This document shows, one piece after another, positions 22,622-52,206 of a stretch of 64,000 nt of DNA. Position 1 is the stretch's first letter; every line of letters begins with the position of its first letter. The translations under genes and the position numbers were made by a program. A model generated the notes under the pieces. It was not told the DNA's origin. It saw nothing but the letters and a program-made list of their open reading frames with translations, and searched no databases. The stretch is from Leucobacter chromiireducens subsp. chromiireducens (GTDB taxonomy: Bacteria > Actinomycetota > Actinomycetes > Actinomycetales > Microbacteriaceae): NCBI RefSeq assembly GCF_016758255.1, contig NZ_QYAD01000003.1:62001-126000 (forward strand). The letters run 5' to 3'.

Positions 22622-23917
22622 TTAAGCGCCGGCGCCAATCACAATGCGCGGCACTCCACGCCACAGCGCAGGATCGGTTGAATTGCGGCCGTCCGCAAAG
22701 AGCTTGATCCCCGGGAAGTCGGCGGGGCCCAGGTCACGATACTCTGCGTGATCAGCCTGCAGAATCGCGACGTCTGCTTCGTCCCCAATCGTGTGCGCCG
22801 TGAAACCGAAGCCCGCGAGCTCCTCGTCTGTAAACAGCGGATCGTGCACGGTCACCTGCGCCCCGCGGGCGGTGAGCTCCTCAACGGTTGGGAACACACC
22901 GGAGACTGCAGTTTCCTTCACGCCGCCGCGGTACGCCGCCCCAAGCACGACCACGCGTGTACCGGTGAGGTCACCGATCGTCTGCTCGACCCGGTCGACG
23001 ACGTACTTCGGCATGGTCGCGTTGTAATTGCGCGCCGTACGCACGATGTCTGCGTCAGGGTCGGTGGATAGGTACAGTCGCGGGTAGACCGGAATGCAGT
23101 GTCCGCCCACGGCGATGCCGGGGCGATGGATGTGGCTGAACGGCTGCGAATTGCAGGCCTCGATCACTTTGTAGACGTCGATGCCGGTGGTATCCGCGAA
23201 GCGCGCAAACTGGTTAGCGAGCCCGATGTTCACATCACGGTAGGTCGTCTCGGCGAGCTTCGCCATCTCCGCAGCCTCTGCGGTGCCCATATCCCAGACG
23301 CCGTTCGGGCGCTTCAGGTCGGGACGCTCGTCAAACGTCAGCACCGACTCGTAGAACTCAATCGCCCTTTTTGTGCCGGCATCGTTCAGGCCGCCCACAA
23401 GCTTCGGGTACTTCTTCAGGTCTTCGAAGACGCGACCGGTGAGCACGCGCTCGGGCGAGAATACGACGTGGAAGCCCTCTCCCTCCGTGAGACCCGAGAC
23501 TTCCTCGATCAGCGGCTTCCAGCGGGTGCGCACCGTGCCGACGGGCAGCGTCGTCTCATAGGAGACGAGAGTGCCGGGAGTCAGGTGCTCGGCGAGCGAG
23601 CGAGTTGCCGCGTCCATCCAACGGAAGTCAGGCTCCCATGTCTCTTCGTCGACGAGCAGCGGCACGACGATCACGATCGCGTCGGCACCGGGGATGGCCT
23701 CTGCGTAGTTCGTGGTCGCGCGCAGCTTGCCCGCGGGAACGAGCTTGGCGAGCCGCTCAGCGAGGTGCGCTTCGCCAGGGAACGGCTCCTCGCCGCGGTT
23801 AATAGCGTCAACGAGCGCTTCGTTCACGTCTACGCCAATCACATCGTGCCCCATGTGGGCATACTGTGTGGCGAGAGGAAGGCCGATTTTGCCGGTGGCA
23901 ACAACTGCGATTTTCAC
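22622..23917 (-). CDS. Nucleotide-sugar 6-dehydrogenase (UDP-GlcNAc/ManNAc type)
   Basis: Oxidises C6 of a UDP-HexNAc to the uronic acid with two NAD+. The 431-residue protein has an N-terminal Rossmann element VVATGKIGLPLA, where Ala replaces the first Gly of GxGxxG (a variant I associate with actinobacterial members), the middle segment ETTYRDVNIGLAN and the catalytic-Cys motif GGHCIP. Similar to WecC and WbpA. Start is GTG 23917; TAGACT lies seven bases ahead and there is no ribosome site. Divergent from the WbpI-like epimerase gene, which fits a joint pathway. Confidence 0.88.
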   Translation of the reverse strand: MKIAVVATGKIGLPLATQYAHMGHDVIGVDVNEALVDAINRGEEPFPGEAHLAERLAKLVPAGKLRATTNYAEAIPGADAIVIVVPLLVDEETWEPDFRWMDAATRSLAEHLTPGTLVSYETTLPVGTVRTRWKPLIEEVSGLTEGEGFHVVFSPERVLTGRVFEDLKKYPKLVGGLNDAGTKRAIEFYESVLTFDERPDLKRPNGVWDMGTAEAAEMAKLAETTYRDVNIGLANQFARFADTTGIDVYKVIEACNSQPFSHIHRPGIAVGGHCIPVYPRLYLSTDPDADIVRTARNYNATMPKYVVDRVEQTIGDLTGTRVVVLGAAYRGGVKETAVSGVFPTVEELTARGAQVTVHDPLFTDEELAGFGFTAHTIGDEADVAILQADHAEYRDLGPADFPGIKLFADGRNSTDPALWRGVPRIVIGAGA

Positions 23918-23924
23918 GCTTCTT

Positions 23925-23930
23925 AGTCTA
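23925..23930 (-). promoter_or_regulatory. Candidate -10 of the 6-dehydrogenase gene, leaderless
   Basis: TAGACT on the minus strand, exactly seven bases before GTG 23917. Confidence 0.45.
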
Positions 23931-24008
23931 CATCCGTCTGTTGTGAGTGCGGCGGCTTTGGCATCTCGCAGATGATGCTGCTTCGACGCGCGTCTTCGCT
24001 GCATTCCG

Positions 24009-30847: not shown

Positions 30848-31960
30848 TCAGGCGCCCGCGCGGGTGACCGCGGTGACGGCCGTGACGATCCGCTCGAGGT
30901 CTGCGTCGCTGAGCGAGGGGTGCACGGGCAGCGAAAGCACCTCGCTCGCAGCCTTCTCGGTCTGCGGAAGTTCCAGATCCGGCGCGAAATGCTTGAGGGA
31001 AGGGAGGCGGTGATTCGGGATCGGGTAGTAGACCCCGCTGCCGACCTGGTGCTCGTCCTTCAGCGCCTCGCGAATGCGGTCGCGCTCGCCCGCGTCGAGG
31101 CGAATCGTGTACTGGTGGTAGACGTGCACGGCCCCCTCGGCGACCGCCGGGGTCGTGACGCCCGCGAGGCCCGCGAGGCCCGCGTTCAGCGTCGCGGCGT
31201 TCGCCTGGCGCTGCGCGGTCCAGGCGTCGACCTTGGTGAGCTGCACGCGACCGATCGCGGCGTGTACGTCGGTCATGCGCGCGTTGAAGCCGATGACCTC
31301 GTTCGCGTACTGGGTCTCCATCCCCTGGTTGCGCAGCAGCTGGACGCCGCGGGCGAGCTCAGGGGTGGCGCAGGTGACCATGCCGCCCTCCCCGGAAGTC
31401 ATGTTCTTCGTCGGGTAGAGGCTGAACATCGCGAAGTCGCCGAGGGTGCCGACGGGGCGTCCCTGCCAGTTCGCGCCGTGCGCCTGCGCCGCGTCTTCGT
31501 AGATCGCGAGGCCGTGCTCGGCGGCGATCGCCTCGAGCTGGTCGACGAGGAAGGGGTGACCGTAGAGGTGCACCGGCATGATTCCCTTCGTACGCGGCGT
31601 GATCGCCTGGCGCACTGCCTCGGGGTCGAGAGAGAAGTAGTTGGGCTCGATGTCGACGAACACGGGGGTCGCGCCGGTCAGCGCGACCGAGTTGCCCGTC
31701 GCAGCGAAGGTGAAGGAGGGGACGATGACCTCGTCGCCGGGGCCGACGCCCGCAGCGAGCAGGCCGAGGTGCTGGCCGCTCGTGCCCGAGTTCACCGCGA
31801 CCGTGGGGCGGCCCGACACGAAGTGCACCGAAAATTCATCTTCGAATGCTTTGACCTCTGGCCCCTGGGCGATCATGCCCGAGCGCAGCACACGGTCAAC
31901 CGCCGCGCGCTCTTCGTCACCGATGATCGGCTTGGCCGGGGGAATAAAGTCAAGTTCCAT
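30848..31960 (-). CDS. DegT/DnrJ/EryC1-family nucleotide-sugar aminotransferase
   Basis: A 370-residue PLP enzyme that aminates a keto-sugar nucleotide using glutamate. The Schiff-base Lys is K185 in YPTKNMTSGEGG; NSGTSGQHLGL and EDAAQAHGA line the cofactor site. It resembles WbpE/GnnB-type 3-aminotransferases and would accept the 3-keto product of the GnnA-like dehydrogenase at 37729. Begins 11 bases after the LGFP gene. TAGGGT eight bases before the ATG (31969-31974) might give an internal leaderless transcript. Confidence 0.87.
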   Translation of the reverse strand: MELDFIPPAKPIIGDEERAAVDRVLRSGMIAQGPEVKAFEDEFSVHFVSGRPTVAVNSGTSGQHLGLLAAGVGPGDEVIVPSFTFAATGNSVALTGATPVFVDIEPNYFSLDPEAVRQAITPRTKGIMPVHLYGHPFLVDQLEAIAAEHGLAIYEDAAQAHGANWQGRPVGTLGDFAMFSLYPTKNMTSGEGGMVTCATPELARGVQLLRNQGMETQYANEVIGFNARMTDVHAAIGRVQLTKVDAWTAQRQANAATLNAGLAGLAGVTTPAVAEGAVHVYHQYTIRLDAGERDRIREALKDEHQVGSGVYYPIPNHRLPSLKHFAPDLELPQTEKAASEVLSLPVHPSLSDADLERIVTAVTAVTRAGA

Positions 31961-31971
31961 AGTCGGGTACC

Positions 31972-34500
31972 CTATCGCGTTTCGTGCCCCGAAAGATTCG
32001 AGACATCCTCCCTAGAAGTCTCCGGGGCGTGCTCCTCCAGATTACCTCCTTGCTGGCCCGAAACCGTGTCTTCGCCAGCGCGGGTGTCCTCGCCGCCTGC
32101 CGACTCATCGGGTGCGGCGTCGCCATCGGGCGCGGGAGCTTCAGCGGCGGGCAGGCTCAATGCGGCCTTCCCGGCGACGAATTTCACGCCCGTCGCGGGC
32201 GTGTAGACCGCCTGCCCGCGCTCAAAGTTCATCGTGCACGCACCCGCGGGAGTACACACTGCCTCCGCGATTGGCCACCCCCAGGACCCGTTCGGCCCCC
32301 CAGCGGCGGTATAGGTGTTCATGAATGCGCCGTTCCCGAACCGCACCGAGGCCTTCGGGCCCAGGAACAGCGAGCCCCGCTGGAACTTCATCACGGTTCC
32401 GCCCGTGAACTTGGCCTCTTCGCCCAGTGGATACCCGAGCGGTCCGCCGTGACCGCCGTGCACGAACCACAGCGCCTTCGTCGCATGCGTCACAAAACCG
32501 ACACCAGTCCCCGGGCTATATACGGCCTGGCCGTTGTCAAAGTTCATGGTGCAGGCGCCAGTCGCGTTGCAGCCCGCCTCAGCGAGGGGCCAGCCCCACG
32601 AGCCGGTCGGCCCGCCCCCCGCGGTGAAGCTGTTCATGAACGCGCCGTTACCGAACCGCACTGACGCCTTCGGGCTGATCAGTAGGGTCCCTCGCTGGAA
32701 CCGCATCGTGGCGCCACCCGAGACCGTAGTTTCCTCCCCGATCGGGTAGCCGAGACTGCCGGCGTGACCACCGTGCGCGAACCAGAGGTCTTTGAACTTC
32801 GAAGTGACGAAGCCAACGCCGGTCCCGGGCGTGTAGACCGCCTGCCCGGCGTCGAAGTTCATCGTGCACGTGCTTGCCGCGTTGCAGACCGCGTCCTGCA
32901 GCGGCCAGCCCCAGGGCGACCGGGCGGCGCCGCCCGCACGATCATAGGTATTGAGGAATTCGCCCTTGCCGAGCCGCACCGGGTCACTTCCCACCCGCAT
33001 GAACATGCGTGCGCGTTCAAAGTTCGTGTAGGAACGCTGGGCATCGAGCGCGACGGTCGGCTCAACGATGATCCCGTACTTGGCCATCCCGCCGCCGTTG
33101 AGCCAGGCGTTTGATGTCGCCACGTCAAAACTGTACCCAGCGGTGCGGTTGGCCATCGACAGCCCGCCTTGGAAACGCTGCGCCGTACCGCCAGCGGAGG
33201 TCTCGGCTTCAGCAGTGGGATACTTCAACCGCCCGGTCACGGTCGACAGCCGCTGCCACTCGGGCAGAATCGCCGTCGGGACAAGATGCGAACCCGTCGC
33301 CCCGGAGTACGCGACCACACCGGTTTGGAACGGCATCGTGCAGCCGCCAGCCGCAAGCCCGCAGGTCGCGTCGGCTGTCGGCCAGCCCCAGGGGCCCTGC
33401 ACAAAGCCTGCCGCACGGTAGTTGGTGAGAAACGGCCCTGCACCCATCGCAGTCGACTTGCCAGTGCGGTTCTCGTAAAAGATCGTGCCCCTTTGGAACT
33501 CTTGGTAGCTACCGCCGCCGTTCGCTGCAACGCTCGTTGCGTTCGCGACCGGGCGGCCCAGCGTGCCGTTCTCTCCGCCGAAGCGCTGCCACGTCGTCGC
33601 GATCGCGCCAGTGACCTGATAGCCGACAGGGTCGCCAAACCAGGTCTTATAGAAGAGGTAGAAGTTGCGGTTACCGTAAGAGGAGCAACTGTCGCCGGTG
33701 CCCCAGCCCGCGTTCAGTGCGGCCTGGTTCGGGCGGTACGGCGTGTAAATGTAGAGCGCAGCGGTTGCGTAGTTCGTAATCGTGAAGGTCGAGGTGCCGC
33801 AGCCCGCGTTCGGGTGCCACTGCACGCGGTTTGCCTGGAATGGCTTGTAGTTGTAGTTGTAGGGCTGCGCCTTGTAGACCTGCAACTGCCACGCTGCTTT
33901 GTAGACCTGGTTCTGGAAGCCGCGCATCGACGGGTCACAGTTCGGACTATTGCCCGGCCCACTATCGGGGCAGGCGTACCCCATTGCGACGTCAAACTGG
34001 CGCACGGTCGGCCAGGTGTCAGAAACGAGGTTCTGCTCTTTTTCAAGCATGATGAGCAGAACGCGTTGGCTGATTCCGCAGGCCTGGCCGACCTTCGTGA
34101 TAATCTGCGCGGCGGATTCGTTCGCAACGCCGGCATACCCCGCGCAGAACTCGTTCGCGGGCTTACTGACGGTGTTGAACGTGGCATTCCGGAGGCATTT
34201 GCTCGCAACCTGGGTTCCATAGATGGGGCTTCCAGCCTTCTTCCCGGGGTCGCCGATCTCACAGCGGGGCACTCGGGCGTTCAGGAAGCTCTGCACCTGC
34301 GCGGGTGTCATTGCCCGCCCCTCGTAGAACAGGTCGTCACTGATGATAGTTCCCGGGTTGAATCCCGACGCGATGCTTGCTTCGGCATTGCTGGCGTTCC
34401 CAGGAGCCGCGACAAACATGGTGGTGGCCACCGCGGTGAGCAGGAGCGCAGCAACCGGGCGCAGCCAGCGTCGCGCGGGCTTCCGCCTTCGAACATTCAT
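31972..34500 (-). CDS. Secreted LGFP-repeat cell-wall protein
   Basis: An 842-residue exported protein: twin basic N-terminus with an Arg-rich region (RRRK, ARRWLRP), a hydrophobic signal segment, then a domain (~45-260) with LLIMLEKEQNLVSDTWPT and GFQNQVYKAAWQLQVYK, found in several actinobacterial wall proteins, and then LGFP-type repeats to ~790, followed by an acidic Asp/Glu/Gly tail. Each repeat half contains PWGWP..C...CTMxF, so a Cys pair recurs in every unit. LGFP repeats are proposed to tether proteins to wall glycans. GAGGAAG precedes ATG 34500. First gene of a run leading into the DegT aminotransferase. Confidence 0.83.
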   Translation of the reverse strand: MNVRRRKPARRWLRPVAALLLTAVATTMFVAAPGNASNAEASIASGFNPGTIISDDLFYEGRAMTPAQVQSFLNARVPRCEIGDPGKKAGSPIYGTQVASKCLRNATFNTVSKPANEFCAGYAGVANESAAQIITKVGQACGISQRVLLIMLEKEQNLVSDTWPTVRQFDVAMGYACPDSGPGNSPNCDPSMRGFQNQVYKAAWQLQVYKAQPYNYNYKPFQANRVQWHPNAGCGTSTFTITNYATAALYIYTPYRPNQAALNAGWGTGDSCSSYGNRNFYLFYKTWFGDPVGYQVTGAIATTWQRFGGENGTLGRPVANATSVAANGGGSYQEFQRGTIFYENRTGKSTAMGAGPFLTNYRAAGFVQGPWGWPTADATCGLAAGGCTMPFQTGVVAYSGATGSHLVPTAILPEWQRLSTVTGRLKYPTAEAETSAGGTAQRFQGGLSMANRTAGYSFDVATSNAWLNGGGMAKYGIIVEPTVALDAQRSYTNFERARMFMRVGSDPVRLGKGEFLNTYDRAGGAARSPWGWPLQDAVCNAASTCTMNFDAGQAVYTPGTGVGFVTSKFKDLWFAHGGHAGSLGYPIGEETTVSGGATMRFQRGTLLISPKASVRFGNGAFMNSFTAGGGPTGSWGWPLAEAGCNATGACTMNFDNGQAVYSPGTGVGFVTHATKALWFVHGGHGGPLGYPLGEEAKFTGGTVMKFQRGSLFLGPKASVRFGNGAFMNTYTAAGGPNGSWGWPIAEAVCTPAGACTMNFERGQAVYTPATGVKFVAGKAALSLPAAEAPAPDGDAAPDESAGGEDTRAGEDTVSGQQGGNLEEHAPETSREDVSNLSGHETR
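32225..32868 (-). repeat. Tandem ~315-bp repeats encoding LGFP modules
   Basis: The DNA segments encoding the CTMNF motif recur at about 32225, 32540 and 32855, giving 105-residue units. The most similar stretch reads GNGAFMN(S/T)(F/Y)TA(G/A)GGP in the last two units. Copies have diverged at the DNA level. Confidence 0.7.
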
Positions 34501-34600
34501 CGGAACTTCCTCACCATCTCCGGCTTGTGCACGATAAATCAGCGCCGGCGTTCCCGGCCACCCTACCTTTCGTGGGGCGCGAGTCTGCAAGAATAGGTGT

Positions 34601-35305
34601 ATGTCGTCACTATCTGAAGGTGCCCGAATTGAGCCGGGCGGGGCACCCGACACGTGGGTAATCATTCCCCTCTACAATGAGGCGACGGTAATCGGAGACG
34701 TGATCAGCGGCCTCCGTGCTGAATTCGAGAATATTGTGTGCATCGATGATGGCTCTCGAGACGGGTCCGGCGCCGTCGCAGCAGCAGCCGGATCACAGAT
34801 CGTTCGCCACCCGATCAATCTCGGGCAGGGGGCCGCGCTCCAAACAGGTTTTGAGTACGCACTCGAAAGAGGCGCAGAGTTTGTTGTCACCTTCGATGCG
34901 GATGGTCAGCATCGTGTGGTCGATGCTGTAGACATGCTTTCCAGGGCTCGCGCAGAGAACCTAGCGATAGTCTTCGGCTCCCGATTCCTCGATGACCGAA
35001 CGAAGCCCGGCATCCTAAAGAAAATCGTACTGAAAACAGCGGTTTGGGTAACTAATCTTACAACGCACACCCGCCTCACGGATGCTCACAATGGCCTGCG
35101 TGTGATTCGCGCCGACGCGCTACGGCGTGTGAAACTTCGCCAGGACCGCATGGCACACGGAACTGAAATCGTAGTTCAATTGGGCAAAACGGGCCTGCCC
35201 TATGCCGAACAACCGGTCGAAGTTATTTACACTGACTATTCCAAGGCGAAGGGGCAGTCACTACTCAACTCGGTAAACATCCTTATCGATCTCTTTATCC
35301 GGTAG
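34601..35305 (+). CDS. Polyprenyl-phosphate glycosyltransferase, DPM1/GtrB-like GT2
   Basis: A 234-residue GT-A enzyme that likely moves a sugar from a nucleotide donor to polyprenyl phosphate. Motifs are WVIIPLYNEATVIGDV, CIDDGSRDGS, FDADGQH (metal-binding DxD) and HNGLRVIRADALRRVK. It ends without C-terminal membrane helices, like DPM1 and unlike full GtrB, so the following small membrane protein may anchor it. Divergent from the LGFP gene over 100 bases. First gene of a plus-strand run extending to 41480; A/T-richer than upstream DNA. Confidence 0.82.
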   Translation: MSSLSEGARIEPGGAPDTWVIIPLYNEATVIGDVISGLRAEFENIVCIDDGSRDGSGAVAAAAGSQIVRHPINLGQGAALQTGFEYALERGAEFVVTFDADGQHRVVDAVDMLSRARAENLAIVFGSRFLDDRTKPGILKKIVLKTAVWVTNLTTHTRLTDAHNGLRVIRADALRRVKLRQDRMAHGTEIVVQLGKTGLPYAEQPVEVIYTDYSKAKGQSLLNSVNILIDLFIR

Positions 35306-35312
35306 GAACCTC

Positions 35313-35681
35313 ATGCAGCTGATACAAGTTCTCCTAATTCTCGGAGTAGTCATCGTCGCGGTCCTAGCGATTCGTGCACTTCCTGGCGATCGGTCCCTAG
35401 CTCTCAAGCGGATCATTGCCCTGCTTTTTGTTGCTGCGGCTGTCTTCGCAATCATTTTCCCCAACGCACTCACCCAGGTTGCGCACTTCTTCGGTGTAGG
35501 CCGAGGAACTGACCTCCTGCTCTATTTGCTGGTCATCATGACGCTATTTTTCGCGGTCTCGACTATTAGAGCGAAGGCGCGGAGCGACGCTCGAGTAACC
35601 GATCTCGCGAGAGCTGTCGCCCTATTTGAGGCGCGAGTGGTCGAAGCCGAAGCAAAGCGAAGCGCGGACAGTTCCGAATGA
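35313..35681 (+). CDS. DUF2304-family small membrane protein
   Basis: A 122-residue protein with three predicted membrane helices (about 4-22, 34-54, 68-86) and a polar helical C-terminus. The pattern matches DUF2304 proteins, which sit beside DPM1-type glycosyltransferases and are presumed partners. It starts seven bases after the GT2 stop, and its last four bases (ATGA) overlap the next start, so the three genes are probably translationally linked. Confidence 0.8.
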   Translation: MQLIQVLLILGVVIVAVLAIRALPGDRSLALKRIIALLFVAAAVFAIIFPNALTQVAHFFGVGRGTDLLLYLLVIMTLFFAVSTIRAKARSDARVTDLARAVALFEARVVEAEAKRSADSSE

Positions 35682-37660
35682 TCGCCTGGTTGCCGCTCGT
35701 CGTACCCGCCACGGCAGCACTACTCCTAGTCGTCGCGCTTGGACTACCAATTTCTCTGGCTTTACGGCTCCGCGGTTTTTTTGCGTTTGCCGTCGCTATC
35801 CCGGCAAGCCTGGCTGTGGTCGCTATCGCGTCTCTACTTGCGCCGCTTGTCAGGGTCCATTGGTCTCCACTTCCCCCGCTCGCGCTCGGGATAGTAGTCG
35901 CTGCACTGTCCTTTGTTTGCGCCCGCCGGGTGGGGCCAGCTCACAGGAACCGTGCAGGCCTACACCGAACACTAGTGCCAATCGGCGCAGCAGCACTTGG
36001 TGGCCTCGCGATAGCTGTCTCGCTCACTTTGAGTATGAAGTCAGCAGATGCGATTTCTCAAACCTTCGACGCAAATTTTCACCTCAATGCTGTCCGTCAG
36101 ATACTGGAGACTGGCAGCGCGTCGCCACTCGACATGGATCTCGCGGCCCCAGGCTCGAAGACCTACTATCCAACGCTATGGCACGGATTTGTCGCTCTCG
36201 TGGCGCAACTCTCGGGGGCTTCAGTCCCGATCGCCACGAACGCTACAGTTTTCGTCGTGTGCGCCGTGGTGTGGCCAATCGGTGTGGTCCTTTTGGGGCG
36301 AGCTCTTGCGGGGCCAAGCACCCGTGTAACGCTGGTTTCCGGGATCGCATCAGCAGCGTTCCCCAACTTTCCGCTCGCCCTTGCAGGCTATGGAGTCCTC
36401 TATCCCAATCTGCTTGCGATCGCTCTAGCTCCGTATATCTTTACCGGAGTACTCCAGCTCTGCGCGCTCTCGAATGCTCGACGTTCAGAGGGTTCCTTCT
36501 TCGTTGCTGCGGGGCTTCTCACCTTTGGTTCGCTCGGAGCGGCGATTTTCGCGCACCCAAATGCTATTCACATCGCTCTTCTCTGGATGGTCGTGCCGGC
36601 TATCACTGTGGTGTACCGCGCGTTTCGAGGACAGCGAGTGCCTGGCTGGTCAGGCGCACTCGTCGAGCCCCTACTGCCGCGCAAGATACGGCTCACCGCC
36701 GCGCTCTCCGGCTTGCCGCTACTTGGGTTGGCGATAGTCATTGCGTGGGCTGTCGGTCGAACCACGGACAATCCTTGGAAAGGAAAACACGAGGTTTCCG
36801 GCGCGCTGCTTGATGCATTCGGCATGACCCCCAGACTGGAGGGGCATGCATGGCCGGTCACGTTGCTGTTTCTCTTAGGATTAGTTGTGATCGCACGGTC
36901 CCAACGCCGTCGCTGGATCGGCTTCGGTGCATTGATCCCATTGGCCTTCTATGTCATAGCGGACGGCTTCCCCTCTTCCGAATGGCGCACGTTCTTCCTC
37001 TCTCCGTGGTACAGCGATCCTTGGCGACTCGCTGCGCTTATTTGGGTTGGCGCGCTCCCTCTCGTTGTCATCGGCGCAAGCGCGGCTGCAGCGTGGTTCG
37101 ACGTTGGCTTGCGCTCATCCGCGCGCCTGGTGGCTCATCCTCAGGCCTCGCGCATTGTAGGAGTCACTTTTGGTGCATTGTTCTTACTCGCGGCTACTCA
37201 GGGGGCCGGGGCATTCGCTGGCGTCCAGTACGTCAGCACCAAGTACGAGACCGATGCAGCCGCTCCACTACTTGACAACGACGAACGAGCGCTGCTCGAA
37301 CGTCTCGAGAAGCACGTCCCGGAGGGACAGGTAATTGCGAACAACCCTTGGAACGGGGGCGCACTTGCATACGCTATAGCCGACAGGGAAGTCTTAGTTC
37401 CTCACACCGGTGGAAAGTATGACCCTCGTATCAACGAGATGCTTGAGGGAATTGCTGTTGGGACTCCGCAAGCATGTTCCTTGAGTCGGGAATTCAACAC
37501 GCGGTTCGTACTGGACCTCGGGACCCAATATGTCTTCCCAGAGACACCTCGGGCAGCACCATATCACCCCATCAGCGACATCGATCCGGCGAATGCGTCG
37601 GCTCTTACGGAGGTCGATCGCGAGGGCGATGCCGTTCTCTACGAAATCACCGGGTGCTAG
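35678..37660 (+). CDS. Polytopic membrane protein, DUF6541-like, possible GT-C enzyme
   Basis: A 660-residue protein with about twelve to fourteen membrane helices and a soluble C-terminal domain (~520-660). The first large external loop contains QTFDANFHLNAVRQIL, whose acidic residue and His resemble the catalytic loop of GT-C glycosyltransferases. Together with the polyprenyl-phosphate GT and DUF2304 protein it forms a trio like the Gtr glycan-modification systems, where the large protein transfers the lipid-linked sugar outside the cell. GT-C activity is an inference. ATG overlaps the upstream stop. Confidence 0.7.
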   Translation: MIAWLPLVVPATAALLLVVALGLPISLALRLRGFFAFAVAIPASLAVVAIASLLAPLVRVHWSPLPPLALGIVVAALSFVCARRVGPAHRNRAGLHRTLVPIGAAALGGLAIAVSLTLSMKSADAISQTFDANFHLNAVRQILETGSASPLDMDLAAPGSKTYYPTLWHGFVALVAQLSGASVPIATNATVFVVCAVVWPIGVVLLGRALAGPSTRVTLVSGIASAAFPNFPLALAGYGVLYPNLLAIALAPYIFTGVLQLCALSNARRSEGSFFVAAGLLTFGSLGAAIFAHPNAIHIALLWMVVPAITVVYRAFRGQRVPGWSGALVEPLLPRKIRLTAALSGLPLLGLAIVIAWAVGRTTDNPWKGKHEVSGALLDAFGMTPRLEGHAWPVTLLFLLGLVVIARSQRRRWIGFGALIPLAFYVIADGFPSSEWRTFFLSPWYSDPWRLAALIWVGALPLVVIGASAAAAWFDVGLRSSARLVAHPQASRIVGVTFGALFLLAATQGAGAFAGVQYVSTKYETDAAAPLLDNDERALLERLEKHVPEGQVIANNPWNGGALAYAIADREVLVPHTGGKYDPRINEMLEGIAVGTPQACSLSREFNTRFVLDLGTQYVFPETPRAAPYHPISDIDPANASALTEVDREGDAVLYEITGC

Positions 37661-37673
37661 GTGCATATGCACC
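37660..37673. promoter_or_regulatory. Perfect 14-bp palindrome between DUF6541 and dehydrogenase genes
   Basis: GGTGCATATGCACC starts on the last base of the DUF6541-like stop codon and lies 56 bases before the GnnA-like start. Possible operator of an internal promoter; TAAACT at 37680-37685 could be a -10. Confidence 0.3.
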
Positions 37674-37728
37674 ATCTTCTAAACTAGGTACATCGCCGTT
37701 CTTCGGCGTAGATTCGCAAGGAGTACAC

Positions 37729-38712
37729 ATGACCCTCAAGTTTGGTCTCATCGGGCTCGGCATGATGGGGCGTCACCACGCGCGCGTGTTGCGTGAGATT
37801 GAAGGCGTCGAACTCGTAGGCCTCTGCGATGCGATGGGCGACCCTCATGGAGTAGCGGGGGACACTCCCCTCTATTCCCAGGTTGAGGAGCTTATCGCTG
37901 CGGGCATAGATGCGGCAGTTGTGGCAGTTCCCACGATCTACCACGAGCCAGTTGGACTTACGCTTGCAGCTGCTGGGGTTCATACGCTTATCGAGAAACC
38001 CGTTGCCCATAACCTCAATGCCGCCACGAGTCTTGTCGAGCTCTTCGAGGATCGTGGCCTTGTAGCAGCGGTCGGACATGTCGAGCGGTTTAACCCTGCT
38101 CTCATGAGCTTGCGTAGTCGGATTGAACGTGGTGACCTTGGCGCGGTATACCAGATCCAGACACGGCGCCAAGGCCCTTTCCCTGCCCGAATCGCCGACG
38201 TAGGGGTGGTTAAGGATCTCGGAAGCCATGACATCGATCTCACTTCCTGGTTGGCGCAGTCGCCGTATCAGTCTGTTTCTGCGCAGACCACGTACCGCAG
38301 CGGTCGCGAGCACGAAGACATGCTCGCGATGACCGGAAAGCTTGAGAACGGGATAATTGTTAATCACCTCGTCAATTGGCTGAGCCCGTTCAAAGAACGG
38401 CTCACAATTGTCACAGGAGAGCGCGGCGCCTTCGTGGCAGACACTCTGACTGCTGATCTCACGTTTTATGAGAACGGAACTTTCCGGGGGGAATGGGATG
38501 CCATCACGGCGTTCCGGGGGGTCAGCGAAGGGGAAGTCACCAGGTTCGCCTTGGAGAAACGGGAACCCTTGAAGTCGGAACATGAAGCCTTCCGCGATGC
38601 GATTCTTGGTCTCCGGGCCGATACCGTTACTTTGCGAGAGGGTCTCGAGACACTTCGAGTTGCAGAAGCTGCGATTCTCTCGGGCAAGACCGGCGAGACA
38701 TTGAGTCTGTAA
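37729..38712 (+). CDS. Gfo/Idh/MocA oxidoreductase, GnnA-like UDP-GlcNAc 3-dehydrogenase
   Basis: A 327-residue NAD(P)-dependent sugar dehydrogenase. GLGMMG at residues 9-14 binds the nucleotide and EKP (89-91) contains the catalytic Lys. VGHVERFNPA and RRQGPFPARIADVGVVKDLGSHDID are the segments found in UDP-N-acetylglucosamine 3-dehydrogenases of the GnnA/archaeal type, rather than in WbpB. It would make the 3-keto sugar used by the DegT enzyme. AAGGAG lies five bases before the ATG. Its TAA overlaps by one base the ATG of the LpxA-like gene. Confidence 0.85.
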   Translation: MTLKFGLIGLGMMGRHHARVLREIEGVELVGLCDAMGDPHGVAGDTPLYSQVEELIAAGIDAAVVAVPTIYHEPVGLTLAAAGVHTLIEKPVAHNLNAATSLVELFEDRGLVAAVGHVERFNPALMSLRSRIERGDLGAVYQIQTRRQGPFPARIADVGVVKDLGSHDIDLTSWLAQSPYQSVSAQTTYRSGREHEDMLAMTGKLENGIIVNHLVNWLSPFKERLTIVTGERGAFVADTLTADLTFYENGTFRGEWDAITAFRGVSEGEVTRFALEKREPLKSEHEAFRDAILGLRADTVTLREGLETLRVAEAAILSGKTGETLSL

Positions 38713-39458
38713 TGGGTACACGTATTAGCCCCGCTGCCTTTGTCGGCGAAGGGGTCGAGCTGGGCACCGACGTTTGCGTTGGCCCAGGGGCTGTACTTCT
38801 CGGACCCCTGACTATCGGGGATCGGGCATGGATCGGAGCTGGAGCGCAGATCGGGGCTCCGCCCGAGATGAGCTCACTCGCTCAGAACCTGGCGTGGGCG
38901 GGGGAACTCGATCACGCCGGTGTGAGCATAGGTGCAGACGTCGTCATTCGTGAGTCCGCAGTGATCCATCAGGGCAGTTACCGCGCGACACATGTTGGCG
39001 CCCGCAGTTGGGTACTCAACCGTGCCTACCTTGCACACGATGTGTTGCTTGGCGAAGATGCGACCATTTCAGCTGGTGTGAGCGTTGGAGGACATTGTGT
39101 CATTGGCGATCGCGTGAACATTGGAATGAATGCCGTAGTCCATCAACGTCGCGTGATTGCGGGTGGGGCCATGATCGGCATGGGCACGCCCGTCACGCGA
39201 GATGTGCCCCCGTTCGCAAAGGTCTACGGCACGCCACCTCGAATCACAGGGGTGAACTCTGTCGGAATTGAGCGGGCAGGCCATGATTCTTCTCTCGCAG
39301 ATCATCTTCTCGGGCACTATGTAGCAGGAGAGCTGTTTACAGGGTCCGGTTGGGTACCGGAAGATTTGGGGTCCTTGACTGGTGCTTTCGCCTGGTGGCG
39401 CAGCCAGGGAGCCCTCAATCCGGTTGCCGTCTCGCGATCGCTCAGAAAAGAACAGTAG
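38712..39458 (+). CDS. LpxA-like left-handed beta-helix acyltransferase
   Basis: A 248-residue hexapeptide-repeat protein. The order of elements follows LpxA: repeats from residue 5, then YLAHDVLLG with the catalytic-type His at 109, NIGMNAVVHQ, IGMGTPVTRDVPPFAKVYGTP and a final GVNSVGIERAG. As no lipid A is expected in this Gram-positive context, I infer N-acylation (probably N-acetylation) of the 3-amino sugar made by the two preceding pathway enzymes. Translation is coupled to the dehydrogenase. The last ~50 residues replace the usual LpxA helical domain. Confidence 0.82.
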   Translation: MGTRISPAAFVGEGVELGTDVCVGPGAVLLGPLTIGDRAWIGAGAQIGAPPEMSSLAQNLAWAGELDHAGVSIGADVVIRESAVIHQGSYRATHVGARSWVLNRAYLAHDVLLGEDATISAGVSVGGHCVIGDRVNIGMNAVVHQRRVIAGGAMIGMGTPVTRDVPPFAKVYGTPPRITGVNSVGIERAGHDSSLADHLLGHYVAGELFTGSGWVPEDLGSLTGAFAWWRSQGALNPVAVSRSLRKEQ

Positions 39459-39461
39459 GCT
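39456..39461 (+). promoter_or_regulatory. Candidate -10 overlapping the LpxA-like stop codon
   Basis: TAGGCT begins with the TAG stop of the LpxA-like gene and lies eight bases before GTG 39470. It could give a separate, nearly leaderless transcript for the exporter genes. Confidence 0.3.
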
Positions 39462-39469
39462 CATCCGAC

Positions 39470-40336
39470 GTGACGTACACAGCTGCTCTCTCTGATCCGG
39501 AATTCCAGACTCCCGGCAAGAGCAAGGGGCTTTGGGGGGTATTCCAGTACCGGTATCTCCTGACGCTTCTCCTGAGGAAGGGCATCGCAACCCGCTACCA
39601 TGGCTCAGTCCTTGGCTGGGTATGGTCATATGTGAGGCCTGGCGCACAGTTCCTGATGTACTATCTCGTGGTCGGCCTGATCATGGGACAGAGCCGGGGA
39701 ATTGACTACTTCCCTGTGTACCTATTTGCAGGAATTGTTGCAGTTAATCTTTTCTCTGAGGCGCTGCGCAATACCACGAGTGCGATAACCGACAATGCTT
39801 CCCTTATCAAGAAGATCTACATACCTCGGGCGCTGTTTCCGGTTTCAGCAATTGGTGTCGCACTTGTTCATTTCCTTCCGCAGGCAGTTCTTCTGCTCGT
39901 CGTAGCGTTGGCGTGCGGCTGGACAATCGGCTGGCTTCAAGTAGTCGGTTTTGTCATTGGCGTTGCCCTTATTCTTTGTTTTGCGTTGGGACTCGGGCTT
40001 TTCTTCGGCTCAGTGAATGTCGCCTACCGGGATGCACGCAACTTTGTCGATCTCATTCTGATGTTCGCAACATGGGCGTCTCCAGTCCTCTACGCATGGA
40101 CAATGGTTCGCGATCGGGCTCCAGAGTGGCTCTACAACGTCTACATGATGAACCCGATGACCGTCGCGGTTGAGATGTTTCACGACGCTTTCTGGCTTCC
40201 GTTGGCGCCAGATTCCGCACGCCCCGAAGGACTACTTGTTTTTGCCTTGGTCGGCGCAACCATCGCTGTCGGTACGTTGATTGTGGGGCAGCTCGTCTTT
40301 CGCAAGTTGGAGGGTTCTTTTGCCCAAAATCTCTGA
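39470..40336 (+). CDS. Polysaccharide ABC exporter permease (Wzm/TagG-like)
   Basis: A 288-residue ABC-2 type permease with about six membrane helices after a cytosolic N-terminal segment holding LLLRKGIATRYHGSVLGWVWSYVRP, the typical amphipathic gate region of Wzm. Later SLIKKIYIPRALFPVSAI and MNPMTVAVEMFH are also family features. It would form the channel that exports a finished lipid-linked polymer. Start GTG 39470, 12 bases after the LpxA-like gene, without a clear ribosome site. It overlaps the ATPase gene by 17 bases. Confidence 0.9.
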   Translation: MTYTAALSDPEFQTPGKSKGLWGVFQYRYLLTLLLRKGIATRYHGSVLGWVWSYVRPGAQFLMYYLVVGLIMGQSRGIDYFPVYLFAGIVAVNLFSEALRNTTSAITDNASLIKKIYIPRALFPVSAIGVALVHFLPQAVLLLVVALACGWTIGWLQVVGFVIGVALILCFALGLGLFFGSVNVAYRDARNFVDLILMFATWASPVLYAWTMVRDRAPEWLYNVYMMNPMTVAVEMFHDAFWLPLAPDSARPEGLLVFALVGATIAVGTLIVGQLVFRKLEGSFAQNL

Positions 40337-41480
40337 ACGCGGGAAACCCGCCATCGTCTTCTCTGACGCCAAGAAGACATTCAAGATCAAACACACCAAT
40401 TCCTTCAAGGAAACATTTATTGCGGCGCTCCAACGCAAGGAGCTCACGACAGACTTTAACGCTGTCGACGGAGTGAGCTTCGATGTTCCAGAGGGTCAGT
40501 CGGTTGCGCTCATGGGAAGCAACGGCTCAGGAAAATCGACGACTCTGAAGCTCCTGTCCGGTGTACTCGCGCCAGACGGAGGCTGGGTACGGACCCGCGG
40601 ACGAATTGCCGGACTCATTGAGGTTGGCGCCGGGTTTCATCCTGACCTCACCGGGCGTCAAAATGTTTACCTCAACGCCGCCATCCTGGGGATGTCAAAA
40701 GAGGAGACTGACGCAAAATTCGACGACATTCTCGAGTTTTCTGAAATTGGGGAGTTCATAGATACAGAGGTGAAACGCTACTCCTCCGGCATGTACGCGC
40801 GCCTCGGATTCGCGGTGGCAGTACACACAGAGTTTGATGTGCTCTTGGTGGACGAAGTTCTTTCTGTCGGGGATGCTGCATTCCGTGAGAAGTGCAACGA
40901 ACGGATGCTTCAGTTGCGTGAACGCGGAAAGACTATGTTCATTGTGAGCCACAACGCTGGCCAGGTTCTTCGGCTCTGCGAACGTGGAATTGTGCTTGAG
41001 CATGGTCGTGTCATCTTTGACGGCCCCATAGAGGAAGCCGTCGATGCCCTCGAGCGCTCCCAGCGAGGACAGGGGCTTGTGAACGATTTTCCCGTCCTAC
41101 ACCCGCTCAGCTCAGTCTATGATCGAAATCCATCGGCGTACGGTGCTCCCCTCGCTCCTCAGCAGCAACTTGATTCAGGGGTGTACCAGGAGTTTGAGCG
41201 TGGGATTATCTCAGCGTTCACTGGCCCAGGTGCCACAAACGAAGCAGTGGGCTTGCCACGCGGTGTTTTCCTTTCTGCGTACGAACGTGCGGGTGGGCCG
41301 CGAGGTCCATGGGGGCTACTCGCTGGTCGACCTCGAGGCCGCTTCGAAGATTTTGAGACCCGTGCGATGCCGTTCGAAAACGGAATCGCCTGGTACTCGC
41401 TGGATTCGGGCTTCAGTTTCGCCCGAGCGGGAACAGAAGAGTTCAATTCAGTACGCGAGATTTACGAACGCGAGGACTGA
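40320..41480 (+). CDS. Wzt-type ABC exporter ATPase with C-terminal LGFP-like module
   Basis: A 386-residue ATPase of the polysaccharide exporter. Walker A GSNGSGKS at 66-73, signature YSSGMYARL at 154-162, Walker B VLLVDEVLSVGD near 174-185 and VSHN at 209-212. After a linker (~250-286), residues 287-370 align with the LGFP modules of the secreted protein at 31972-34500: YQEFERG against YQEFQRG, FLSAYERAGGPRGPWG against FLTNYRAAGFVQGPWG, and MPFENGIAWYS against MPFQTGVVAYS. The Cys pair of the secreted modules is absent. In Wzt the C-terminal domain recognises the polymer end, so this module may do so. TTG start at 40320 with GGAGGG five bases before. Confidence 0.88.
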   Translation: MPKISERGKPAIVFSDAKKTFKIKHTNSFKETFIAALQRKELTTDFNAVDGVSFDVPEGQSVALMGSNGSGKSTTLKLLSGVLAPDGGWVRTRGRIAGLIEVGAGFHPDLTGRQNVYLNAAILGMSKEETDAKFDDILEFSEIGEFIDTEVKRYSSGMYARLGFAVAVHTEFDVLLVDEVLSVGDAAFREKCNERMLQLRERGKTMFIVSHNAGQVLRLCERGIVLEHGRVIFDGPIEEAVDALERSQRGQGLVNDFPVLHPLSSVYDRNPSAYGAPLAPQQQLDSGVYQEFERGIISAFTGPGATNEAVGLPRGVFLSAYERAGGPRGPWGLLAGRPRGRFEDFETRAMPFENGIAWYSLDSGFSFARAGTEEFNSVREIYERED

Positions 41481-42444: not shown

Positions 42445-44205
42445 CTACCGGAGCGGGGCGCGGTACCCGGCGGCACGAGCTGCGGCCACCGTAGAGAAGC
42501 ACTCCTCGGGGACGGTGCGGCTGTAATACGTGCTTCCCGCAACGTGGTAGATCCAGTCACTACGTCCGTGGTTTCCCTTGATGGGCGCCCACGCCGGGCA
42601 GGTGCCCGAGTACCCGGGGTTGTAGCGACTCGGGGTCTTCACCGCGCCGGTGGCGTTCGACACCTGCGCAGCGGTCGAGTACCCGCTCTGCGAGCCCGTG
42701 ACGCGCACCGAGATCCGCTTCCCGATATCGCCGCTGCCCACGGTGTAGCTCGACCCAGTCGCGCCACGAATCGCGGCCCCGTTGCGCAACCACTGCGTAC
42801 TGAGCTTCGTGCCCTTGGTCCAGGTGCCACGCTTGACGGTGAGCTTCGACCCCACCACAGCCGAACCCGAGATGGTGGGCTTCGGGCTGCTCAGCACCTT
42901 CGGGATGCTGCGCGTACCGGAGGTCTTCGCCACGGTGACGTAGCCCGACTTCTTTCCGGTGATGCGCACGGACACCTTCGCGCCGCCATCGGACTTCGTG
43001 AGCGTGTAGCTCGCCTTCGTCGCGCCGCTGATCGCCTTCCCGTTGCGCAGCCACTGGTACGACAGGGAGACGGGTCCCGGTTTCCACGCGCCCGATGAGG
43101 CCGTCAGCTTCGCCCCAACCTTCGAGGTGCCGGAGATCTTCGGCGTCGGTGCCGCGGTGAGCGTCCGGAGCACGGTGCCGGTGGCGGCGGAGGTCACTGT
43201 GCGGGTGCCGTACCCGGCAAGCGTGCCCGTGACGCTCAGGGTAATTTTCTTCCCCGCATCGGCGGAGGTGAGCTTGTAGCTCGACCCCGTTGCCTTCGGA
43301 ATCGCGGCACCGCCGCGCTTCCACTGGTATTTGAGCGCCACGCCGCCGGGCTTCCAACTGCCCACCGAACTCTTGAGGGTGGTGCCCACCACAGCGGCGC
43401 CCGAGATCTTTGGCGTCGCGGTGGTGAGGGTGCCAGCGGCCACGGCCTTGCCCACCCCAACGGAGGCTGAGGCCGGCGTGAAACCAACGAGCTGCGAGGT
43501 GACCGTGACCGTGATCTGCTTGCCGAGGTCTGCGGCGACAAGGGTGTAGCTCGCCGCGGTTGCCCCCGCGATCGCCGCACCCGCGCGCTTCCACTGGTAG
43601 CTCAGCGCCGCACCGCTCGGCACAGATGCCTGCGCGCTCACGCTGAGCTTCTGCCCCACGGTCGCGGTGCCCGAGAGCTTCAACGCGCCGGCGCGGAGCG
43701 TGCCGGGCTTCACCAGCACTGCCTCGGAGGCGACCGTGAGCGGATCGGATCCCGCACGAGATGCGGTGACGGTCAGCCGGACGCTCTTGCCTGCGTAGTC
43801 GCGAAGCAGAGGGAACGTGTCGCCGGTGGCCCCGGGGACGTCACTGCCGTCAACCTGCCATTGGAGGGCGAAGTCAAGATCCGGCGCCAGCCAGAGCCCC
43901 GGCGTGCCGCGGAGCGTCTGCTCGACCTGCGCGACGCCGGTGACGCTGGGCAGCTGCTCGGGAGCGGGGATGGGCCCGACCTCGCCGGGGTCGGTGACGC
44001 CAAGATCGGGATCGGTGTTCTCGCCGCCGGGCCCGGGCTCGACAGGAGTATCGGGACCGGGGACGAGCGTCTCCAGCGATTCGTCGAGCAGCGTGACAGT
44101 GGGGGTCGTGTCTGCACTGCGTTCATCGTCGACGGCGAACGCCGGTCCGGCGGGAACGCTGAGCACGAGGCCCGCGGTGAGCAGCACGCCGAGCAGCTTG
44201 CGCAT
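42445..44205 (-). CDS. Secreted protein with bacterial Ig-like repeats and C-terminal Cys motif
   Basis: A 586-residue exported protein: signal peptide ending PAFA, an acidic Pro/Gly region (~25-85), then about five repeats of ~85 residues with the pattern P-xISG-xxxVGxxLxxxxGxW and YQWxRxGxxIxGATxxSY, an Ig-like beta-sandwich fold. The end, CPAWAPIKGN...IYHVAGSTYYSRTVPEECFST, resembles small metal- or sugar-associated modules sometimes called sunset domains. Probably a surface adhesin or wall spacer; the ligand is unknown. AGGGGGA precedes the ATG; TACAAT (44243-44238, minus strand) is a possible -10. Confidence 0.75.
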   Translation of the reverse strand: MRKLLGVLLTAGLVLSVPAGPAFAVDDERSADTTPTVTLLDESLETLVPGPDTPVEPGPGGENTDPDLGVTDPGEVGPIPAPEQLPSVTGVAQVEQTLRGTPGLWLAPDLDFALQWQVDGSDVPGATGDTFPLLRDYAGKSVRLTVTASRAGSDPLTVASEAVLVKPGTLRAGALKLSGTATVGQKLSVSAQASVPSGAALSYQWKRAGAAIAGATAASYTLVAADLGKQITVTVTSQLVGFTPASASVGVGKAVAAGTLTTATPKISGAAVVGTTLKSSVGSWKPGGVALKYQWKRGGAAIPKATGSSYKLTSADAGKKITLSVTGTLAGYGTRTVTSAATGTVLRTLTAAPTPKISGTSKVGAKLTASSGAWKPGPVSLSYQWLRNGKAISGATKASYTLTKSDGGAKVSVRITGKKSGYVTVAKTSGTRSIPKVLSSPKPTISGSAVVGSKLTVKRGTWTKGTKLSTQWLRNGAAIRGATGSSYTVGSGDIGKRISVRVTGSQSGYSTAAQVSNATGAVKTPSRYNPGYSGTCPAWAPIKGNHGRSDWIYHVAGSTYYSRTVPEECFSTVAAARAAGYRAPLR

Positions 44206-45364: not shown

Positions 45365-46753
45365 CTACTCCTCGGGAGCTGGTGAGGCCTCGGCAATGCC
45401 CTGCGCCACCAGTTGCCGGATCACGTCGAAGTCCGGGTAGTCCGGATCCACCTCCGGCGGCACCAGCTCAACGTTCAGCGGCTTGTGCGCGCTCGCCTTC
45501 GTTGCGAGATCGAGGAAACGACCGAGCATCGACTCGGGCAGATCCGTCTCCACGAGCTGCGTGCCCGCGGCGGCGATCTTCTGGAAGTTGAGCAGCACAT
45601 TGCTCGGGTTCATCTGGTCGAGGATGGCGGCCTGCAGCTCGCGCTGGCGCTCCATGCGGTCGTAGTCGCCACGATCCGAGCCATAGCGGGATCGCGCGTA
45701 CCACTGCGCGGTGTAGCCGTTCATCTTCTGCAGACCGGGCTCGATGTAGCCGTCAACATTGTTGCCGTACTGGTCGCCACCGATGGGCAGTCGCTCCTCG
45801 ACGTTGATCGTCACGCCGCCGAGCGCATCGATGATGCTCTCGAACGCATCCATGTTGAGGAGCACGTAGAACTGCACCTCGAGCCCCGTTGTCGCGGTGA
45901 CCGCGTCCTTTGTCGCCTCGATGCCGGGCGACGACCCCTTCGCCTTCGCGTTCGGGTACAGCTCGGGCTGGAACAGCTCAACCTCGGCGTAGAGCCCGTT
46001 GAGGATGCATCGGCCCACCTCGCAGCCACCCCAGTCGCCGTACGCATTCGGTGCGACACCGAAGCCGTTCGGGTGGATGTCGTACATGGGCGAGTCCTCG
46101 GGGAACGGCACCCCAGACAGCTCGCGCGGGATCCCGATAATCGCCGATTGCCCGGTCTTCGCGTCGATACTCACGAGCGAGATGCTGTCGGGGCGCAATC
46201 CCTCACGATCGGCGCCCGCGTCGGTGCCGAGCAGCAGGATGTTGTAGCGACCATCGACCGGCTCCACCGCCGGGGCACCGCTGAACAGCCCGGAGAGCAG
46301 CTCGCGGCCCGCGTTGATCGTCGTCGCGGTCCACGCCGCCCCCGCGGAGGGCACCACGGTGAGCAGCACGGAGAGGATCGCGATCGGCACGCGCCACCCC
46401 CGATGCGTCTTCACGAGGCGCGTGAGGCGCAGCGTGTCGAAGCCGAGTACCAGCCAGAGCACCGCGTAGAACACCAGCAGGATCTGCAGCACGAGCAGCA
46501 CCATGCTGTTCGCAAAGAACGACAGGGTGGCCACCCGCGCGAAGAGCAGGCCGCCGAGCGCCGCAAGCACACCGACGATGAGCAGCGAGGTCGCCACCGC
46601 CCCGAAACGGCCAAGCTTCCGGTTGCCGGCGAGCAACTGGGCGCTCCCCGGGAACAGGAACCCGATCAGCACGAGCCACCGCGCCCGCTTCGTCATGAGC
46701 GGTGCGGACTCGGTATCCGGGTAGCGCAGCGGCCGCTCGAGATCGAGCGTCAT
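45365..46753 (-). CDS. LytR-CpsA-Psr (LCP) family wall glycopolymer ligase
   Basis: A 462-residue membrane protein that transfers lipid-linked glycopolymers onto peptidoglycan. About four N-terminal membrane helices (from ~25 to ~150) precede the extracytoplasmic LCP domain, which starts NILLLGTDAGADREGLRPDS, with the usual Arg/Asp pair, and has IGIPREL and the ARSRYGSDRGDYDRMERQRE segment. I set the start at ATG 46753, overlapping the galE stop by four bases (ATGA), so the two are coupled. This links UDP-galactose supply to polymer attachment. Confidence 0.92.
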   Translation of the reverse strand: MTLDLERPLRYPDTESAPLMTKRARWLVLIGFLFPGSAQLLAGNRKLGRFGAVATSLLIVGVLAALGGLLFARVATLSFFANSMVLLVLQILLVFYAVLWLVLGFDTLRLTRLVKTHRGWRVPIAILSVLLTVVPSAGAAWTATTINAGRELLSGLFSGAPAVEPVDGRYNILLLGTDAGADREGLRPDSISLVSIDAKTGQSAIIGIPRELSGVPFPEDSPMYDIHPNGFGVAPNAYGDWGGCEVGRCILNGLYAEVELFQPELYPNAKAKGSSPGIEATKDAVTATTGLEVQFYVLLNMDAFESIIDALGGVTINVEERLPIGGDQYGNNVDGYIEPGLQKMNGYTAQWYARSRYGSDRGDYDRMERQRELQAAILDQMNPSNVLLNFQKIAAAGTQLVETDLPESMLGRFLDLATKASAHKPLNVELVPPEVDPDYPDFDVIRQLVAQGIAEASPAPEE

Positions 46754-47763
46754 GCGGTGTAACCGCCCGGGTTTGCAGACTGCCACGCCCACGAGTCGCG
46801 GCACGCCTCAGCGAGCGTGCGGGTGGTGCGCCAGTCGAGCTCCTCGTTCGCTCGCGCGGGATCGGCCACGACCTCTGCCACATCGCCCGCGCGCGGCGGC
46901 GCGACCACGTAGGGAACGGGGCGGTTCGACGCCTCCTCGAAGGCGCGCACCACCTCCAGCACGCTTGAGCCGGTGCCCGAGCCCAGGTTGTAGGTGCGTA
47001 CACCGGCCGCGCCCTGCTCGAGCGCGGCGACGTGCCCCTCGGCGAGATCCATCACATGGATGTAGTCGCGCACGCCGGTGCCGTCTGGGGTGTTGTAGGT
47101 GTCACCAAAGACGCTGAGCTGCGCGCGCTTGCCGACAGCCACCTGTGCGATGAACGGCATCAGGTTGTTCGGGATCCCGGCCGGGTCCTCGCCGATCCGC
47201 CCCGAGGGGTGCGCGCCCACCGGATTGAAGTAGCGCAGCAGCACCGCGCTCAGCTCGGGCCAGGCGTGCTGCGCGTCGCGGATGATCTGCTCGTTCATGA
47301 ACTTCGACCAGCCGTACGGGTTCGTGAGCCCCACGCCGGCGCGCTGCGCCTCGTCGATCGGCGACACCTCGGGGTCCCCGTAGACGGTCGCGGACGAGCT
47401 GAACACGAGGTTCGCGACCCCGCGCTCGCGCATGAGGTCGAGGAGCGTCAGCGTCGAATCAATGTTCACCCGGTAGTAGCGCGTCGGCTCGGCAACCGAC
47501 TCACCCACGGCTTTCAGGCCCGCGAAGTGAATTACCGCGTCGAACTCCACCCCGTCGAGCGCGGCGGCGGTGGCGACGCGGTCGGCGAGGTCAGCCTCAA
47601 TGACGGGAATGGTCGCTCCGGTGAGCTGCTCCACACGCCGCACCGCCTCGGGGCTGCTGTTCGAGAAGTCATCGAGCACGATCGCGTCGTGGCCGCGCTC
47701 AGTGAGAACCAGGGCAGTGTGCGAGCCGATGTACCCGGCGCCACCTGTCAGCAATACACGCAT
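46750..47763 (-). CDS. galE: UDP-glucose 4-epimerase
   Basis: Makes UDP-galactose, the precursor of UDP-Galf. A 337-residue SDR enzyme with GGAGYIGSHT (NAD binding), SSSATVYG, the YGWSK catalytic Tyr-Lys pair and RYFNPVGAH. The ATG at 47763 begins the conserved MRVLLTGGAG; a longer open frame to 48009 is rejected because it adds a basic low-complexity stretch outside the fold. TACGCT seven bases before the ATG and no ribosome site point to a leaderless transcript shared with the LCP gene. Confidence 0.94.
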   Translation of the reverse strand: MRVLLTGGAGYIGSHTALVLTERGHDAIVLDDFSNSSPEAVRRVEQLTGATIPVIEADLADRVATAAALDGVEFDAVIHFAGLKAVGESVAEPTRYYRVNIDSTLTLLDLMRERGVANLVFSSSATVYGDPEVSPIDEAQRAGVGLTNPYGWSKFMNEQIIRDAQHAWPELSAVLLRYFNPVGAHPSGRIGEDPAGIPNNLMPFIAQVAVGKRAQLSVFGDTYNTPDGTGVRDYIHVMDLAEGHVAALEQGAAGVRTYNLGSGTGSSVLEVVRAFEEASNRPVPYVVAPPRAGDVAEVVADPARANEELDWRTTRTLAEACRDSWAWQSANPGGYTA

Positions 47764-51966: not shown

Positions 51967-52106
51967 GCGGCCGAGCGTCTCATTACACCGCGGCACTGGG
52001 CGGACGAAGCTTCTTCGCCCCCACAAATCCGCAGGCCAGGGCGCTTCAGCCCCGCTGTGAGCGACTCCCTTCACGCCGCCTTCCCCCATCAGCCCGCCCT
52101 CCCGCT

Positions 52107-52177
52107 GAATCGGGGTCACTTGGGCAGGGTGTTGCGCACGGCACACATGCGACACCCTGCCCAAGTGACCTCGATTC
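52107..52177. repeat. Palindromic intergenic repeat, copy 2
   Basis: Arms begin GAATCGGGG at 52107 and end at 52177 with CGATTC; about 30 paired positions with few mismatches around a central loop. Its left arm matches copy 1 exactly over 28 bases while the loops differ. Together the copies flank the DUF559-type gene. It lies in the 364-base gap 51967-52330, whose other content is the MarR-type operator and promoter. Confidence 0.8.
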
Positions 52178-52206
52178 GGCCGAGCGCGGGAGGGCCGGCG
52201 GATGTA

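Follow-up and report, generated by a model that had tools for sequence, protein, structure and literature searches.

A pair of LGFP repeats at the C-terminus of a Wzt-type exporter ATPase in Leucobacter

The stretch of DNA analysed here, referred to as the window, comprises 64,000 nucleotides from Leucobacter chromiireducens subsp. chromiireducens and contains a sugar-polymer locus whose main features are listed in Table 1. Several glycosyltransferases and GalE are also encoded in this locus. NCBIfam cut-offs were passed by the NDP-sugar dehydrogenase, GalE and the LCP domain model, and the other locus proteins scanned stayed below them. The latter include the Gfo/Idh dehydrogenase, for which UDP-GlcNAc 3-dehydrogenase was the best match. 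Judging from these neighbouring sugar genes, a 2,3-diamino sugar would be expected in the wall polymer made by this locus. The scan of neighbouring proteins recognised neither a methyltransferase nor a kinase that could add a cap; a glycosyltransferase could act as chain terminator. The DUF6541 protein recurs between the genes of the PpgS-like protein and the acyltransferase in many of the compared loci. Also within the polymer locus, 42445-44205 on the minus strand encodes Ig-like repeats and ends in the NCBIfam 'sunset' domain. The minus-strand stretch 51049-52221 shows a weak match, below cut-off, to the restriction-endonuclease-like family MTES_1575.

Table 1. Features of the polymer locus, in positions of the window.
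Feature	Position	Strand	Evidence or remark
Nucleotide-sugar dehydrogenase	22622..24004	-	NDP-sugDHase above cut-off
DegT-family sugar aminotransferase	30848..31960	-	E 5e-123
Secreted protein with LGFP tail (ORF)	31972..34665	-	LGFP E 3.9e-42, 7 stretches
First LGFP pair of the secreted protein	33283..33567	-	62.5 bits to the profile of the ATPase module, highest of 4 units
Polyprenyl-phosphate glycosyltransferase, PpgS-like	34601..35305	+	264 bits, below cut-off 370
DUF6541 protein	35678..37660	+	E 2.2e-138
Gfo/Idh/MocA sugar dehydrogenase (ORF; conserved part from ~37735)	37474..38712	+	
Hexapeptide-repeat sugar acyltransferase	38712..39458	+	
Wzm-type permease (ORF)	39350..40336	+	ABC2_membrane E 6.6e-15
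Wzt-type ATPase with C-terminal LGFP pair	40320..41480	+	386 aa from TTG at 40320
ATP-binding domain, TagH/Wzt type, residues ~12-245	40353..41054	+	Pfam, NCBIfam and PDB matches
LGFP repeat pair, residues ~264-370	41109..41429	+	Pfam, six-frame, profile and predicted-fold matches
LytR-CpsA-Psr glycopolymer transferase	45365..46804	-	TIGR00350 76.1 bits, cut-off 62.3

The open reading frame of the ATPase extends from 40281 to 41480 on the plus strand, and its 386-residue reading equals the database protein P0002 in length. Its start is overlapped by 17 bases by the 3' end of the Wzm-type permease gene, for which the coordinates given are those of the open reading frame, the start being approximate. 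The ATPase domain is of the Wzt/TagH type: Pfam ABC_tran matches residues 50-180, and the best structures for this part in the PDB are those of O-antigen (Wzt) and teichoic-acid (TagH/TarH) exporters. The NCBIfam equivalog models for TagH and the galactan-exporter Wzt match it as well, all below their cut-offs. A hydropathy scan revealed neither a membrane-spanning stretch nor a signal sequence in the protein, so that its C-terminal part should lie in the cytosol. The same scan of the 34 related C-terminal domains described below gave a maximal 19-residue mean of 1.12, as against 2.76 for the window's Wzm; no membrane-spanning stretch follows the ATPase domain in any of the 34, unlike in TagH with its extracellular C-terminal part.

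That C-terminal domain is a real pair of LGFP repeats. The original prediction had assigned residues 287-370 to LGFP; the family stands, and the extent is now a repeat pair at about residues 264-370. In the protein itself Pfam LGFP (PF08310) matches residues 275-329 with E 6.6e-4 and 20.4 bits, a little short of the cut-off of 22, and the same stretch reaches 23.2 bits, above that cut-off, when the whole genome is searched in six frames. The LGFP matches of that search (E<=0.1) are confined to two genes, those of the ATPase and of the secreted protein. Since the score of the single protein lies near the curated cut-off, its relatives were tested. Each of the 34 related C-terminal domains matches LGFP by itself (E<=0.1, best 2e-10), and none of the 34 matches Wzt_C (PF14524) in Pfam. 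The profile built from the 34 domains matches the LGFP domain of PDB 6swz (E 1.7e-9). The predicted fold is likewise LGFP-like, with the LGFP domain of mycoloyltransferase A (MytA) as its only significant match in the PDB. The VIA list holds no Wzt_C chain among the 50 matches listed, which is uninformative by itself.

The fusion occurs in 33 of 54 same-genus genomes, which yield 34 modules as G027 has two copies; some of the fusion-negative genomes are incomplete (e.g. G002 72%, G026 74%, G050 76%). The two copies of G027 belong to two Wzm-Wzt pairs close together (L030), both ATPases carrying LGFP. A Wzm match adjoins Wzt in all 24 loci examined for this lineage of fused ATPases (lineage 1), out of 33 fused genomes in all, and an acyltransferase is found near the exporter in 21 of 24 fused loci as against 4 of 8 unfused ones. 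All named homologues are from Leucobacter except two LGFP-type exporter ATPases labelled Caenorhabditis remanei (P0008) and Mycolicibacterium (P0010), labels that probably reflect Leucobacter contamination or misnaming. No fusion was found outside the genus in the sampled genomes of the family, order and class, which is a statement about these samples. With the A1 profile 55 of 398 family genomes gave a match, 10 of them same-genus and including the fusion; for the other 45, 20 loci were inspected (one per genome), and none has an ATPase domain within the stretch. In the order 65 of 396 genomes matched, our own included, and none of the 28 loci searched has an ATPase domain. The class sample of 394 genomes was compared with the ATPase of G021, five candidates being scored per genome. 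Among the matches listed only that in the window's own genome reaches far into the LGFP region (3-287 of 341), and no other row extends past residue 269 of the G021 protein. A search of genome contigs retrieved eight loci, namely six from Leucobacter, one Agromyces secreted protein and one distant Sphingomonas match.

Closely related ATPases that end without LGFP occur in G051, G037, G046 and G043. Exporters without a C-terminal domain lie beside several of the same sugar genes in G051, G037, G009 and G025, and LGFP is therefore not needed for every such polymer. On the ATPase tree the fused label needs four changes, which leaves both losses and repeated gains open. A single origin of the 34 modules is not rejected by the LGFP tree (p-AU 0.649), which has few columns for its size (112 for 109 rows).

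Two further genomes of the genus, G021 and G032, contain a different ATPase, likewise with an LGFP pair at its end (E 2.5e-12 and 2.1e-11). This ATPase is 44% identical to that of the window where aligned and 50-52% in the ATPase domain. In the ATPase tree it falls outside a 53-row clade (SH-aLRT 99) containing all 34 other fused ATPases, a placement less sure than this value may suggest, as the tree comes from a quick search without bootstrap and the program warned of long branches meeting at G021/G032. The LGFP part of one lineage does not have that of the other as its closest neighbour, but an LGFP tree joining them is not rejected (p-AU 0.065). On the ATPase tree the second fusion appears to be independent of lineage 1, whereas a single origin is not rejected when the LGFP tree is taken alone. 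All five best-scoring relatives of the G021 ATPase in the class sample carry Wzt_C at the place of LGFP, and so do, according to Pfam, six of eight other extended ATPases without LGFP, including that of the same-genus G030. The two in which Pfam found no Wzt_C are those of G050 and a paralogue in G011. In this paralogous exporter ATPase of G011 (L187) a Pro/Gln-rich tail of 143 residues takes the place of a domain. The simplest reading of these results is that LGFP replaced Wzt_C in the lineage of G021 and G032. They support the view that the LGFP pair occupies, directly after the ATPase domain, the place of the carbohydrate-binding domain used in export. The PpgS-like, Gfo/Idh and acyltransferase genes of G021 and G032 are 56-82% identical to those of the window while the permease is only 26% identical, which points to an exchange of the exporter, the new one having LGFP too.

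The secreted protein has a hydrophobic, signal-peptide-like start near 34500. Homologues are present in 51 of 54 same-genus genomes, and in 49 of these (G042 and G050 were left out) the tail was read: it consists of LGFP in 36, of SLH in 11, of another repeat in G030 and is lacking in G011, whose protein ends early. All 11 SLH tails, that of G040 among them, match SLH in Pfam, with no LGFP among the matches listed. Taken together, the window and the loci L080-L090, L091 and L093 show a secreted protein with a conserved N-terminal domain and exchangeable tails. The ATPase module is indeed free of cysteine, as had been predicted, the two cysteines of the protein (C192 and C220) lying in the ATPase domain. 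The companion claim that every module of the secreted protein contains a Cys-x6/7-Cys pair proved incorrect: pairs occur only in its four WGWP repeats, once as C-x6-C and three times as C-x5-C, and its LGRP, LKYP and LGYP repeats have none. One cysteine is found in 2 of 33 related ATPase modules. The absence of cysteines had been taken as an expected trait of a cytosolic module. This adaptation was ruled out as an explanation because LGFP modules without cysteine are frequent in secreted proteins: of 36 secreted LGFP tails, 20 have none, three of these 20 (G010, G029, G033) running off their contigs, and the disulfide cysteines of GH70 LGFP domains are absent in MytA, as noted in the available text of PMC11299179.

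The domain that follows the ATPase in O-antigen exporters serves to recognise the capped polymer end, and it is essential for capped polymers to be exported, as far as described in the available text of PMC9445017, which also reports that Wzt binding domains supplied in trans restore export; for the LGFP domains of MytA, an interaction with peptidoglycan-arabinogalactan was seen in pull-downs (PMC11299179, available text). The portions available of PMC11927696 and PMC2447325 contain nothing further on LGFP binding. Because of this role of the Wzt domain and these pull-downs, together with the position of the LGFP pair, its recurrence there and its faster divergence (the mean identity of the module is 41.5% in comparison to 77% for the ATPase), substrate recognition is the best explanation. 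We consider it rather probable that the LGFP pair is a Wzt_C-like polymer receptor on a Wzm/Wzt exporter of a lipid-linked wall glycopolymer. The ATPase would be a subunit of that ABC exporter, and its LGFP pair would bind, on the cytosolic side, a feature of the finished polymer as Wzt_C does in O-antigen exporters. This feature would probably be the growing end or an amino-sugar repeat resulting from the neighbouring dehydrogenase, aminotransferase and acyltransferase. By presenting the polymer to the Wzm channel the pair would license ATP-driven export, and the LytR-CpsA-Psr enzyme would then attach the polymer to the wall.

The original prediction went further in assuming that one module reads one glycan twice, inside the cell during export and outside during anchoring. 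The architecture behind it is real and lies at the carbohydrate-binding place of Wzt, but a glycan shared inside and outside finds no support as a general rule. It is suggested by the only two LGFP genes found in this genome lying 6 kb apart in one polymer locus. Moreover, the ATPase modules form a group together with the leading LGFP pairs of eight secreted proteins (SH-aLRT 94). In 23 of the 36 secreted LGFP proteins it is the first pair that best fits the ATPase profile (two of these proteins have one unit only), so the export module likely originated from such a protein. Among the 33 fused genomes, however, the secreted tail is LGFP in 22, missing in G011 and SLH in 10, and in these 10 no LGFP gene was found besides the ATPase. 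Conversely, a secreted LGFP tail occurs in 14 genomes that lack the lineage-1 fusion; G021 and G032, with the second fusion, are among these, and in the other 12 no fusion of either kind was found. Nor are ATPase modules especially similar to the secreted modules of their own genome. In 22 genomes the own secreted protein came first only once, with a centred mean rank of 11.1 of 22, not significantly above shuffled pairs (p=0.079). Left out of this test were the 10 SLH genomes and G011, whose tail has 20 residues, and of G027 only the first copy was used; for G001 and G033 the secreted tail is cut by the end of the contig, and for G035 it lies on a short contig. In all 22 genomes the best match of the ATPase module was the secreted protein of G004. 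The SLH tails, the genomes free of lineage 1 and the result for own pairs show that the inner and outer uses of LGFP are not obligatorily coupled, and strict pairing as a rule is ruled out. Recognition of the same glycan at both steps is thus unlikely as a general explanation; in genomes having both modules, such as this one, both may bind the same polymer.

A structural or regulatory LGFP pair that binds no glycan in the cytosol but brings about dimerisation or gating of the ATPases, or else serves as a dock for a glycosyltransferase and so couples synthesis to export, seems rather improbable to us. ATPases of the same lineage exist without the pair, and in A. aeolicus the dimer of the binding domain straddles the hinge helix of the ATPase and the polymer modulates ATP hydrolysis (PMC9445017, available text), both of which would suit such a role. 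Against it speak the much faster divergence of the module than of the ATPase, and the binding of wall material by the tested member of the LGFP family (PMC11299179, available text). A functionless chance fusion kept by descent could be argued from the close ATPases without the domain (G051, G037, G046, G043), since such relatives imply that the fusion is open to loss or arose repeatedly. However, the whole domain is kept in 34 copies from 33 genomes, none with more than 20 gaps in 106 core columns, and a second lineage acquired LGFP too, so that we regard such a chance fusion as highly improbable. In the codon test of selection synonymous sites were saturated.

To our knowledge, cargo choice by the ABC exporters of Gram-positive wall polymers is largely an open question. 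If the LGFP pair is a polymer receptor, as preferred here, it probably sets which polymer is exported, and a domain of about 110 residues on the exporter allows a direct test of cargo choice. The solved relative of the module interacts with wall material in pull-downs and the module was apparently acquired twice, which suggests that the receptor domains of Wzt are exchangeable cassettes. More broadly, though only as a tentative possibility, LGFP repeats of the wall may have been recruited at least twice as replacement receptors of exporters, the same fold reading the polymer before export and, in genomes such as this one, after anchoring; the specificity domain of the exporter would then be a swappable cassette taken from surface proteins. 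This would be a cytosolic use of a family otherwise described, in the literature available to us, from surface and wall proteins. In line with the original prediction, the fusion was not found described in the literature searched on LGFP, on wall polysaccharide export in Leucobacter and on the C-terminal domains of Gram-positive Wzt/Wzm exporters, as judged by titles and the openings of abstracts, subscription papers lying mostly outside this search. Database annotation already holds both domains, precomputed for 2/9, 10/11 and 0/3 proteins of three homologue sets. The LGFP-bearing exporter ATPase is thus already in public annotation, and we found no paper describing its architecture.

Among known systems, the ATPase part comes closest, in both models and structures, to the TagH/TarH teichoic-acid exporters. 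TagH of B. subtilis has a membrane-crossing C-terminal part, of which none is seen in this ATPase, and we know of no such C-terminal domain in the TagH/TarH-type protein of S. aureus. The LGFP domain of C. glutamicum mycoloyltransferase A (6swz, 6sx4) belongs to the same repeat family and has the fold predicted for the ATPase module. In MytA, however, five repeats form a stalk-like extension of a transferase (PMC11299179, available text), whereas here two repeats follow an exporter ATPase without a signal sequence. The CBM-dependent Wzt proteins (A. aeolicus, E. coli O8/O9a; ABC_tran and Wzt_C, PF14524) have in common with the present protein the Wzm partner, the TagH/Wzt-type ATPase and an extra domain fused directly after the ATPase domain. 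They differ in that this domain is a jelly-roll Wzt_C, in contrast to the LGFP pair with its putative ligand binding found here, where the polymer locus also encodes a LytR-CpsA-Psr enzyme.
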